Origin: Winogradskyella alexanderae
GTDB lineage: Bacteria > Bacteroidota > Bacteroidia > Flavobacteriales > Flavobacteriaceae
Reading direction: 5' to 3'
NCBI RefSeq assembly: GCF_020166335.1
Contig: NZ_JAIUJR010000004.1
Location: forward strand, 1 to 64,000
DNA length: 64,000 nucleotides
The translations under genes were made by a program, and so were the position numbers. Below the pieces are notes generated by a model. It searched no databases. It was not told where the DNA came from and saw only the letters and a list, made by a program, of their open reading frames with translations. This document shows, piece by piece, positions 1 through 3,555 of this stretch. Numbering within the stretch: position 1 is the stretch's first letter; every line of letters begins with the position of its first letter.

Positions 1-708
1 ACAGGCGCCGTTACGGTAACGGACGACGGCAACGGCAACTATACCGTCAACTCGACCGATCCGGACGAGTCCGTGACCAACGAGGTCAACACGGCATTCG
101 CCGTGGTGGGTGGAAATTTGACAATTACAGACAGTGATGGTACTCTCAATGTTCCGCTTACGGATTTAGATTCTGAAGTTACTCAAGTTGTAACTACAGG
201 AAATACTATTGCAGCTCACGATAGTGCGAGTGGTACATCAACAGATATATTAGAAACCGTTACAACAATATCTCAAGCGACCACAACCGGTATTATTACG
301 TATAGCAATGAGGCTGGAGCGAATCAAACAGCAAATGTAATTAGTTCAGATACAAATAATAATATTAGCGCTGGAACAGATGGTGGTGCATATTACAACA
401 GTTTTGTTAAGGCTATGGGTAAAGTGAATGCAAATGGAACAACAAATAAAGCACCATTGAACGCTACGGTTACTAAATTAGGAACTGGTCAATACCAAAT
501 TAATCTGACTCCTGCAATGGCTGATGCAAATTACATTATTCAGTTGACTGTTTTAGACTCTAACGGTGCTGGTAATGATGATTATGACATATCGTATAGT
601 ACACAATTGCCAGGGAGTTTTATTGTTGAAATAGGCGATAATGATAACGGTGGAAGCAACCGAGCCAACCGAGATTTTGAATTTATGTTTACTGTTTTTA
701 ATTATTAG
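1..708 (+). CDS. C-terminal part of a repeat-containing surface protein (5' end outside window)
   Basis: The frame is open from base 1 to the TAG at 706-708, so this is the last 235 residues of a longer protein. The first ~37 codons read like one unit of an acidic Thr/Asp/Asn-rich repeat (DDGNGNYTVN, DPDESVTNEVNT) of the kind found in long flavobacterial adhesins. The following ITDSDGTLNVPLTDL stretch leads into a ~100-residue C-terminal domain from about residue 125 (YYNSFVKAMGKVNANG ... FMFTVFNY). I recall similar C-terminal domains at the ends of other repeat and collagen-like Bacteroidota proteins, but give no family name. Bases 1-110 are ~62% G+C, the rest of the gene is AT-rich. It is followed after 3 bases by the collagen-like gene, so the two are probably co-transcribed. 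An ATG at 73 lies inside the repeat and is not the real start. Function unknown; surface exposure is inferred. Confidence 0.75.
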   Translation, partial: TGAVTVTDDGNGNYTVNSTDPDESVTNEVNTAFAVVGGNLTITDSDGTLNVPLTDLDSEVTQVVTTGNTIAAHDSASGTSTDILETVTTISQATTTGIITYSNEAGANQTANVISSDTNNNISAGTDGGAYYNSFVKAMGKVNANGTTNKAPLNATVTKLGTGQYQINLTPAMADANYIIQLTVLDSNGAGNDDYDISYSTQLPGSFIVEIGDNDNGGSNRANRDFEFMFTVFNY

Positions 709-711
709 ATA

Positions 712-1545
712 ATGAAAAAATTAATTTTTCTTTTATTACTATTTGGTTCATTCTATTTAGAAGCGCAAGTACCAAATGGTGACGAATTAGTTGCAATACA
801 TGTAGTGACCGAAGCAGAAATGTTGACCATTACCAATGCTCCAGAAGGTGCATTAATATATAATTCTACAGATAAAACTATATATAGGTATACTGACACG
901 GCATGGGAAAGCTTAGAAAAAGCATCATCACTTGTTGACAATGGCGATGGAACAGTTACATATACAAATGAAGACGGACATATAGTAACCGTTGGAATTA
1001 TTGGCCCACAAGGACCTGCTGGACCACAAGGGCCTCCAGGTGCGGATGGTGCCGACGGTGCAATAGGGCCACAAGGACCGGCTGGACCACAGGGACCAGC
1101 AGGGCCTTCAAATGTTTATTTGGGTTCATTTATTATAACCAGCACTGGAAATCAAACTATCACTGGCCTGCCATTTCAACCATCACAAATAACGTTTGTT
1201 GCACATGCGAATGTGGAAAATTTCGGAATCGATGCGGACAATCAAGTTGGCAACAACAACAGTGGAATTGCAAATGCCTACGGATCAATGAATGGTTTTG
1301 CAAGAGACGATGGAGGATCGATAACACAAGGCGTAATTTATGTTGGAGGTAGCGGTAATTCTATTAATGATATATCACGTTATTCTTCAAATGCCAGATG
1401 TATTGGTATAAGATATAGTAACCAAAATGGTGATGCTGTAGGTAGAACCCTGGCACAATTTACATCATTTAATGCTAATGGATTTACCATTAATGTTACT
1501 AATCAATCTGACAATCTACTTGTATTTTATACTGCTTACCAATAA
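712..1545 (+). CDS. Exported collagen-like (Gly-X-Y) repeat protein
   Basis: The 277-residue protein starts with a typical signal peptide ([19 protein letters not shown]) and is therefore exported. Residues 20-97 are a non-repetitive N-terminal part ending in [14 protein letters not shown], a motif also common in long flavobacterial repeat proteins. Residues 98-133 are 12 uninterrupted Gly-X-Y triplets rich in GPQ and GPA, followed by a ~144-residue Gly/Asn-rich C-terminal domain. Bacterial collagen-like proteins form trimeric stalks, with the terminal domain acting as trimerisation or binding head; that role here is inference. The gene lies 3 bases after the upstream repeat-protein gene and 7 bases before a T9SS-type protein gene, so the three look like one transcription unit. 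No T9SS sorting domain is visible, so how it is anchored is unclear. Confidence 0.8.
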
Positions 1546-1552
1546 ATAAAAA

Positions 1553-2692
1553 ATGAAAAGAATTTTTTCAATACTAATTATAATGTCAGTTGGCCATAGT
1601 TGGTCACAATCTGAGTTTCATAATTTTGGAAATCTTCAGATTCATGATGAAGGACAAATAGGGTTTCATGTAAATCTTCAGAATGATGGTGCATTTAATC
1701 AAAATTTAGGATTGGCAGGATTTTATAATTCAACTGAATCTTTATTTATTTACGGTACTGAAATCCCTAAATTCTTTGATATGGAAGTTGAAGTTCCCAA
1801 TCATCTGAATTTATTAATAAATACAGAAGTCGAAAATAGTCTTAGTTATATTTCGGGCGATATTGTTACACCAAGATTAAGCCCAAGTATCTCATTAGAT
1901 TTTTTGGGTGACTCATTTTACGTACTTGAAAGTGATTTTCAAAATACAGACGGTTACGCCTCTTATGATGGGTCTAATGAGTTTAGCTTTCCTATTGGTG
2001 CAGATAATAAACTGAGACCACTCATTACGCCTGTTCGAACTTCAAATTTAAAATTTTCTGCAGCCTATTTTAATGAAGACCCAAATTTCCCATCAACATT
2101 TACCGAAGGATTTAACACAAATAACTTTGAAGGCATATTAAATGTGATTAGTGATTTTGAATTTTGGGATTTTGATGGGTCTAACGAAACTATCGTCACC
2201 TTAACATGGGAACAATCAAGTGGAATAGATGATTTAGTTTCAAATTTAGACGAACTCAGGGTAGTTGGCTGGCATATTGCTGACCAAGAATGGAAGGATT
2301 TAGGAAACTCATCTGTGAGCGGTAGCTTCCTTTCAGGTCAGATTTCGTCTTTTATTTTTAATCCAAACGAATATGAGGTCATAACCTTTGGCTCATTGAA
2401 AACAAGTGATGAACTTGAAGTCTATAATTTAATTTCGCCCAATGGTGATGGCCTGAATGATGTCTTTGTAATTGATGGAATTACGCTTTTTGATAATGAA
2501 GTTAAAATTTTTAATCGCTGGGGAAATAAGGTCTTTGAGACCAGAAACTATCAAAATGACTGGAATGGCTTTGCAAATACTGGACGAATCTTTGGTAAGG
2601 GCGAAGCATTACCAGTAGGTACTTATTTCTATACTGTGGAGCTGAAAGATGAGAATTTAAACTTTGCTGGCTGGCTATATATTAATTATTGA
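1553..2692 (+). CDS. Secreted protein with gliding motility-associated (CHU_C, type B) C-terminal domain
   Basis: This 379-residue protein has an N-terminal signal peptide (cleavage probably after SWSQ) and a C-terminal domain of about 85 residues that starts at LISPNGDGLNDVF and continues with KIFNRWGNKVFE, NDWNG and PVGTYFYTVEL. This is the hallmark of the CHU_C/T9SS type B sorting domain, which directs cargo across the outer membrane through the type IX system. The central ~270 residues are not recognised; they contain FSFPIGADNKLRPL, a motif I associate with similar flavobacterial secreted proteins. It is the third gene of the apparent surface-protein unit starting before base 1. Downstream there is no clear hairpin before the next gene. 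Assignment of the sorting domain is firm; the function of the rest is unknown. Confidence 0.85.
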   Translation: MKRIFSILIIMSVGHSWSQSEFHNFGNLQIHDEGQIGFHVNLQNDGAFNQNLGLAGFYNSTESLFIYGTEIPKFFDMEVEVPNHLNLLINTEVENSLSYISGDIVTPRLSPSISLDFLGDSFYVLESDFQNTDGYASYDGSNEFSFPIGADNKLRPLITPVRTSNLKFSAAYFNEDPNFPSTFTEGFNTNNFEGILNVISDFEFWDFDGSNETIVTLTWEQSSGIDDLVSNLDELRVVGWHIADQEWKDLGNSSVSGSFLSGQISSFIFNPNEYEVITFGSLKTSDELEVYNLISPNGDGLNDVFVIDGITLFDNEVKIFNRWGNKVFETRNYQNDWNGFANTGRIFGKGEALPVGTYFYTVELKDENLNFAGWLYINY

Positions 2693-2787: not shown

Positions 2788-3555
2788 ATGAGAAGAGGAG
2801 CCTTTAAAACCAGACTGATTATTGGACTCGCTATTGTGGCTTTTGCTTTTATAAGAAGGTGTAGCCAACAAGAGACCAATCCATATACAGGTAGAACACA
2901 GGCAATATCATTATCTCCCGAACAAGAAATAGCAATTGGTTTACAAAGTGCACCAGGTATGGCCCAACAACACGGTGGTCTGCATCCTGACAATAGATAT
3001 CAAGCATTGGTTGATAATGTTGGTAAGAAATTGATTGAAAGCAGTATCGCTAAAAATACACCTTACAGATATGAATTTCATCTGTTATCTGACCAACGTA
3101 CCATAAATGCTTTTGCACTTCCAGGAGGACAAATATTTATAACCTATGCTCTATTTTCTAAACTAGAAAATGAAGATCAACTAGCAGGTGTTTTAGGACA
3201 TGAGATAGGTCATGTGTTGGGGAAGCACTCTAACGAACGTATAACAGAATCGAAATATTGGCAAACTTTAATTATGGGAGCAGGAGCAATTGATATGGGT
3301 GCTGTTGCACAGCAAATTGGTCAAGGCACTCTACTTAAAAATGGTAGAGATGATGAACTCGAAAGCGATGAACTCGGCGTTCATTTTATGATTGATGCTG
3401 GATATAATCCCGAAGAAATGATTGGTGTCATGAAAATATTAAAGCAAGCGGCAGGACCAAACAGGGTACCTGAATTCCAAAGTACACACCCAGATCCTGA
3501 AAACAGGATAGAACATATTAGAGATGCAATTAGAAAATATAAAAATGCGTCTTAG
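2788..3555 (+). CDS. M48 family zinc metalloprotease
   Basis: A 255-residue peptidase with the zinc motif HEIGH at residues 138-142, extended to HEIGHVLGKH, and the downstream glutamate motif ESDELG supplying the third ligand. The region before it (NAFALPGGQIFITYALF) and the final THPDPENRIEHI are typical of the M48 (Ste24/HtpX/BepA-like) family. The N-terminus has one hydrophobic stretch (residues 9-22) followed by RRCSQQE, so it is either membrane-anchored or a lipoprotein with a weak lipobox. The likely site of action is the periplasm, in envelope protein quality control; the exact substrate is unknown. It appears to be a single-gene unit. The stop codon is embedded in a strong hairpin. 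Confidence 0.88.
   Translation: MRRGAFKTRLIIGLAIVAFAFIRRCSQQETNPYTGRTQAISLSPEQEIAIGLQSAPGMAQQHGGLHPDNRYQALVDNVGKKLIESSIAKNTPYRYEFHLLSDQRTINAFALPGGQIFITYALFSKLENEDQLAGVLGHEIGHVLGKHSNERITESKYWQTLIMGAGAIDMGAVAQQIGQGTLLKNGRDDELESDELGVHFMIDAGYNPEEMIGVMKILKQAAGPNRVPEFQSTHPDPENRIEHIRDAIRKYKNAS

Follow-up and report, generated by a model that had tools for sequence, protein, structure and literature searches.

Three closely spaced open reading frames (ORFs) at the start of the Winogradskyella alexanderae window, i.e. the whole stretch of 64,000 nucleotides analysed here, raise the question of whether their products act together at the cell surface and, if so, how they would be held there. A preliminary description had read them as a repeat protein, a collagen-like protein and a T9SS type B protein that could assemble a surface fibre. 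In the following, the three ORFs are called A, B and C, and C also stands for the relatives of the third protein.

Architecture of the locus

The window begins at base 1 of its contig (C44, one of 51 in the genome), and ORF A (1–708, forward strand) is therefore open at its 5′ end. It is followed by ORF B (712–1545, forward strand), encoding a collagen-like fibre protein of 277 residues, and by ORF C (1553–2692, forward strand), encoding a partner protein of 379 residues as the last gene of the unit; these coordinates agree with the spacings of 3 and 7 bases first reported. A gene for an M48 peptidase (2788–3555, forward strand) lies outside the unit and marks its border. Scans for promoters and terminators gave signals no more than in shuffled sequences.

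The part of A that is visible ends in a head (approximately residues 120–235, 358–705 on the forward strand; the borders are approximate) with the ending FEFMFTV, a type also found in the giant proteins of two related loci (L018 and L102). B consists of three parts, all on the forward strand. The first (residues 26–91, 787–984), hereafter the N-domain, is common to giant fibre proteins and possibly serves as a trimerization domain. The second comprises 12 Gly-X-Y triplets, as originally counted (residues 98–133, 1003–1110), and is matched by Pfam Collagen (E 7e-7, 29.4 bits against a cut-off of 27.2). The third is a head of a conserved INDISRY...YTAY type (residues 135–277, 1114–1542), defined by an alignment of 15 sequences and further described below by a structure model and its fold leads. 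The proposed likeness of a B motif to units of flavobacterial repeat proteins was borne out by the organism's own giant protein, e.g. DNNDGTFTYTDEDG near the end of contig C48. In C, the CHU_C sorting domain seen earlier was recovered at residues 289–377 (2417–2683, forward strand) by both Pfam CHU_C (E 3.2e-28) and TIGR04131 (E 1.1e-12; 47.9 bits, cut-off 35), i.e. as a type B T9SS sorting domain, and the N-terminus of the protein resembles a Sec signal peptide when read by eye.

ORF A as the probable tail of a giant gene

When the N-terminal part of a relative's giant protein was used as query against the same genome, a counterpart was found at the very end of contig C48 (233,239 bases). This N-terminal end of a giant fibre gene (L091 6471–7240) starts with MKKIFLLFVAISSCLISYGQVKIGNNP, which by eye resembles a Sec signal peptide, and then runs off the contig; the gene preceding it is presumably pepE-like. 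In four related loci (L008, L009, L010 and L023) the unit is flanked by a pepE-like gene on its upstream side and, immediately downstream, by the M48 peptidase, and C48 thus appears to adjoin C44. The peptidase follows the unit in L017, L022 and L102 as well. ORF A is very probably the tail of the giant repeat gene beginning at the end of C48, the middle of which is absent from the assembly.

The GC content of the repeat-coding DNA is raised at both sides of the gap. On the C44 side it is 0.61 in window positions 1–115, compared to 0.37 in 116–708 and 0.35 in the whole window, and a value as high occurs in 3 of 6389 segments of 110 bases; on the C48 side it is 0.51 in L091 7030–7240, compared to 0.33. 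Four non-collagen giants compared had no such jump, and the collagen-type giant of L015 reaches 0.575.

Conservation of the gene order

Named genomes were scanned with C as the query, and the best 80 of 190 loci were kept. A match to nearly the whole of C (51–63% identity) was found in 21 of these 80 (L008–L028), labelled mostly Winogradskyella, Lacinutrix, Olleya, Bizionia, Oceanihabitans, Flaviramulus and uncultured Flavobacteriaceae. The other 59 are relatives by the C-terminal part of C alone and were excluded from all counts; in these sorting-domain-only loci (45 of the 59 inspected) the match forms the end of a larger ORF in which no other part of C is present. Directly upstream of C, a same-strand ORF is present in 20 of the 21 loci, the remaining one (L028) being at a contig end, and in nine of the 21 a contig ends 0.3–2.3 kb upstream of C, as repeats would cause.

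For a walk upstream from C, the window, L008–L028 and L124–L161 (covering L136–L152, which also entered the N-domain/C distance analysis) were combined, and the N-domain was recognized by a profile (A4). The added neighbourhoods were hand-chosen, and the two sets of loci were pooled without mutual de-duplication, both here and in the co-variation and fibre/C tests below. The gene directly upstream of C (n = 76) carries an N-domain in 52 cases; the others are 13 cut ORFs, nine other ORFs and two C genes with no upstream ORF (L028, at its contig end, and L151), where ORFs truncated at a contig end or at the limit of the retrieved sequence were counted as open and may hide an N-domain or a stalk type. 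The gap between the upstream ORF and C ranges from −8 to 137 nt, with a median of 4 nt (n = 74).

Conservation of the gene order, on which the three-gene proposal depended in part, was thus upheld. The window's order of heads recurs in L018, where a giant of 1942 residues precedes a 212-residue protein with the B head and no collagen, and then C, and again in L102, where the same heads in order are followed by C and the peptidase. A fixed set of three genes was not found: the unit consists of at least one fibre gene, with the common N-terminal domain, a variable stalk and head and no T9SS domain, followed by C. Up to three such units stand in tandem (three in L131; two in L129, L130, L134, L135, L137–L139, L144–L147 and L150).

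Among the very large members are a fibre protein of 3270 residues (L130 6969–16781) and an open frame of 5385 residues (G373:C1:2645065). One C orthologue (L177 7883–8914, minus strand) carries a type A sorting domain (TIGR04183, 23.2 bits against a cut-off of 23) and has a collagen-rich giant gene downstream; L151 is from the same genome, with the giant located after C.

Co-occurrence of the N-domain and C in the family and beyond

A co-occurrence search, as recommended at the outset, was carried out with a profile of C minus its sorting domain (A1). At E 1e-10 the profile matches 107 of 397 sampled genomes of the family (70 of 237 genera), and 93 of these 107, i.e. 93 of the 397, match at E 1e-40 or better. 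Using this stricter threshold for C and E 1e-15 or better for the N-domain, both were found in 90 of the 397 genomes, C alone in three, the N-domain alone in six and neither in 298, so that the arrangement recurs across the family. The nominal Fisher p is 1e-77, for genomes that are not independent of one another. The three genomes with C alone (G103, G106 and G271) have less than 2.6 kb of contig upstream of C. Of those with the N-domain alone, two have genes running to the contig end (G037, L195; G082, L194) and one (G006) has a short ORF (266 residues) whose surroundings lack C; the remaining ones are G173, G305 and G343. Chance adjacency was rejected on the conserved order and the co-occurrence in the 397 genomes.

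The whole unit is missing between the same neighbours in one congener (G338, L162), where a single small reverse gene lies between the pepE-like gene and the M48 peptidase. Both this genome and a second congener (G157) are without C; the former has no N-domain match and the latter one weak match (4e-6). N-domain genes without an adjacent C were also found, two in L174 and one each in L175 and L176, those of L174 and L175 in genomes that do have C. The two N-domain fibre genes of L174 (1523–3007 and 13427–16123) stand in a surface-polysaccharide-like cluster.

Over the class, the C profile at 1e-10 matches 99 of 395 genomes drawn (family included). The best E outside the family is 5.1e-42, and among the matches listed most lie within larger ORFs. 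In eight hand-chosen C-module loci from outside the family, the N-domain matches are weak (2e-3 to 3e-9) and the type B profile detected no type B sorting domain. In one genome (G681) an N-domain gene with a C-module gene after it occurs four times, in another (G408) once, and in a third (G774) one gene separates the N-domain gene from the C-module gene; an N-domain neighbour is absent in five of the eight loci. Four tandem N-domain/C-module pairs were observed in L197 (1824–19901), from a 7-Mb genome of another family, with C-module proteins that are larger.

Co-variation of the N-domain and C, and exchange of stalks and heads

The N-domain of B is 25% identical to that of the giant. In 13 multi-unit loci (27 of 53 units) the distances between N-domains correlate with those between the C proteins (r 0.68), compared to a mean r of 0.16 and a maximum of 0.54 in 2000 trials in which partners were swapped within a locus; over all 53 units r is 0.45. 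By this pattern the N-domain and C are inherited as a pair, which supports docking between them but is no proof of it, as linkage alone could suffice.

An explanation in which C, as a T9SS adhesin in its own right, has no tie to the fibre genes beyond the common operon, while the fibres reach the surface by a signal of their own or stay periplasmic, was weighed against these observations. Unrelated surface proteins are often co-transcribed, and both the N-domain genes without an adjacent C and the C modules without an N-domain neighbour outside the family would fit it. On the other hand, the near-perfect co-occurrence in 397 genomes makes it hard to see C and the fibres as mere neighbours, C ends each tandem unit in the multi-unit loci, and the co-variation is specific to the unit. 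We consider this explanation improbable.

The stalks fall into beta-type repeats, other repeats and collagen. The collagen stalk noted in B at first sight is present, but it is an optional component of the unit, as 16 of 75 fibre genes beside C are collagen-rich. Among unit pairs with C proteins 70–85% identical (n = 39), the stalk type differs in 19 and the head cluster in six; among those at 85% or above (n = 6), these differ in two and one, respectively. Cut genes may blur the stalk comparison, and the head clusters were formed by single linkage, the largest (45 members) looking chained; exchange of heads is thus less certain than exchange of stalks.

Distribution of the sorting signal and the export machinery

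A profile of the T9SS domain of C, built from 22 proteins (A2) that are mostly among those tested, was matched by all 75 C genes and by none of the 75 fibre genes beside them (E <1). Pfam and NCBIfam likewise gave no T9SS domain in B or in the visible part of A, and no sorting domain in 10 hand-picked fibre proteins. Among seven C proteins compared with TIGR04131, two distant ones fell just under the cut-off and one other has a type A domain. The original assignment of C as an exported base with the other proteins as stalk is in agreement with a T9SS domain in C alone and with the N-domain common to the fibres, and needs correction for A, which it had not placed at the end of a giant gene.

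The host genome encodes SprA (2771.8 bits) and eight PorP/SprF-like proteins over the cut-off, none of the eight genes being on C44 or C48. Lipid anchoring is unlikely, as a lipobox pattern is missing from all 77 C genes and present in just one of 74 N-domain genes. According to two studies (PMC9143113, PMC12618676), PorP-like proteins collect type B proteins and keep them at the surface; in Flavobacterium johnsoniae three orphan type B proteins use one common distant carrier (PMC12618676).

The distribution of the signal also bears on whether C might be a secretion carrier and not just an anchor, binding the fibre in the periplasm so that the complex leaves through SprA on a signal supplied in trans. 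The fibres have no T9SS signal, yet a signal-bearing C almost always accompanies them; C is tightly coupled to them in the operon, as the median gap given above indicates; and the type A domain in one C orthologue looks as though the kind of T9SS signal did not matter. However, an anchor catching the fibre outside the cell accounts equally well for the genomic pattern, the pore may be too small for a very long trimer, and no case of a signal acting in trans was found in the open-licence PMC literature. Such a role, which overlaps with that of a tether, is conceivable but doubtful.

Structure models and the question of a phage origin

The predicted structure of C has a mean pLDDT of 52.9 and that of B 65.5, with about 80 in the N-domain and 74–90 in parts of the head. 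The N-domain model of B resembles collagen XVIII/XV trimerization domains (Foldseek probability 0.99, TM 0.68 by target, E 0.19; superposition of 50 of 55 residues at 2.8 Å, Z 5.0), and its head model resembles both the C-terminal part of T4 gp9 (Z 6.1, 105 residues, 4.1 Å) and Helix pomatia agglutinin (2ccv; Z 4.6, 73 of 99 residues, 2.8 Å), with galectins and many others close behind; all of these lie below the scores that are safe for the tool and may mean merely a common arrangement. The agglutinin is the founding member of the H-type lectins, the fold of which is one candidate for the head. Further hits of comparable Z, such as galectins and spike proteins, were set aside, as were 20 viral Foldseek matches of B (E <0.001), the TM-scores of which are at most 0.27. 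Foldseek gave no match of B in the PDB at E 0.001. By sequence, the PDB search returned no match for the N-domain at E up to 10 and nothing meaningful for B, and no Pfam family was found for the N-domain (four stray matches of one member each, best 0.0011). The modelled folds of B are taken as leads, the N-domain for a trimer and the head for a binding function; the collagen triplets likewise suggest a trimer.

Similarity to tail fibres is also seen at the sequence level, as expected if the genes were remains of a phage or a contractile injection system. B is matched by numerous PHROG tail-fibre profiles (best 5e-13), for the most part in its collagen stretch, one matches residues 155–192 of A (0.0012), and residues 1–65 of B match Cellulophaga phage structural proteins (E 1e-4). 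The genes are nevertheless flanked on both sides by chromosomal genes, with no phage tail or virion gene recognized, and neither the head of A, the C module nor the giant's N-terminal part has a match in the phage collection. Furthermore, C carries a T9SS domain, and the unit has been kept in different genera. Based on the chromosomal neighbours and the missing phage matches, such an origin of the locus was rejected as very improbable. In the Cellulophaga phage Nekkels_1 (L191 2501–3967), a structural protein encoded beside a pectate lyase gene has a Sec-signal-like start and an N-domain-like region matching residues 1–65 of B.

Proposed working of the unit

On balance, we slightly favour a reading in which the unit builds trimeric modular surface fibres that are tethered by C, an anchor delivered by the T9SS. 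Both B and the giant that ends in A would pass through Sec into the periplasm and form trimers, each chain contributing a stalk of repeats together with the N-terminal domain before it and the binding head at its C-terminus, and the fibres would come to lie outside the cell, head first. C would reach the surface by its type B signal, where a PorP/SprF-like barrel protein would retain it, and would bind the N-domain, thereby tethering the fibre. In the course of evolution, stalks and heads would change while the N-domain/C pair was kept. Trimer formation, binding between N-domain and C, surface display, adhesion and the passage of the fibre across the outer membrane are features that we infer.

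Counted in favour of tethered fibres were the adjacency, co-occurrence and co-variation of the N-domain and C, the T9SS domains in 0/75 fibre versus 75/75 C genes, the absence of the unit from G338, the N-domain genes followed by C neighbours in three of the eight loci outside the family, and the holding of type B proteins by PorP-like proteins, as stated in PMC9143113. Counted against it were the N-domain genes without an adjacent C (L174–L176) and the giant placed after C (L177), the lack of a PorP-like gene on C44 and C48, the weak N-domain matches and missing type B domain outside the family, and the poor model of C together with the weak fold matches of B. More tentatively, the unit may constitute a split T9SS adhesin, in which giant trimeric fibres without a signal would be both exported and anchored by a partner supplying the T9SS signal in trans, through a fixed N-domain/C interface and with exchangeable stalks and heads.

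Comparison with known systems

The sorting domain of C matches that of GhpA (7.9e-13), the grappling hook protein of Aureispira, which acts as a hook; the match is confined to that domain. GhpA, with 5898 residues, bears the signal on its own single giant chain, whereas here the signal is on the separate C. In the proteins Scl1/Scl2 and Lcl, as in B, the collagen stalk is followed by a globular part at the C-terminal end. NCBIfam profiles of bacterial collagen-like proteins reach the collagen-rich fibres of the unit, and B weakly, matching the collagen region alone; against the cut-offs of a collagen-like adhesin family B scores 35 bits vs 325, and collagen is optional in the unit. Phage tail fibres similarly have modular heads and stalks with collagen, and the N-domain is common to a Cellulophaga phage structural protein, but here there are no surrounding phage genes and the unit ends with a T9SS protein. 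The collagen XVIII/XV trimerization domain superposes on the N-domain model of B, which in contrast is N-terminal and has no sequence match in the PDB. Trimeric autotransporter adhesins have a C-terminal membrane-anchor barrel, for which no Pfam match was found in A, B or 10 fibre proteins.

A further close system is SprB/SprF of F. johnsoniae, in which, according to PMC9143113 and PMC12618676, a giant repetitive surface protein is likewise linked to a T9SS signal of type B and to a carrier of the PorP/SprF kind. SprB has its signal on its own chain and an adjacent carrier gene, whereas in our unit the fibres are without a signal, C has it, and C44 and C48 hold no PorP-like gene; a sorting domain of its own, as in an SprB-like adhesin, is absent from B, the visible part of A and the fibre genes tested. 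The orphan type B proteins of F. johnsoniae resemble C in being without a neighbouring carrier gene, and the accessible sections of PMC12618676 describe no fibre paired with them. In SprB and RemA, as far as the available descriptions go, sorting signal and adhesin are on one chain; in the unit described here they are separated. A search of open-licence PMC found no publication in which fibre genes are coupled to a distinct protein bearing the T9SS domain; in the parts available, PMC9950754 deals with polysaccharide genes and PMC5742166 has the collagen triple helix solely in a reference title. Giant adhesins displayed by the T9SS are known; what is new, as far as could be seen, is the division between a fibre that lacks the signal and a partner that carries it.

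Present with C in 93 of the 397 family genomes, the unit offers a testable claim on how Bacteroidota display very long proteins. It provides a T9SS-linked home for collagen and repeat proteins at whose genes assemblies break off, and the plug-and-socket-like exchange of stalks and heads is a likely source of quick change in adhesion targets.
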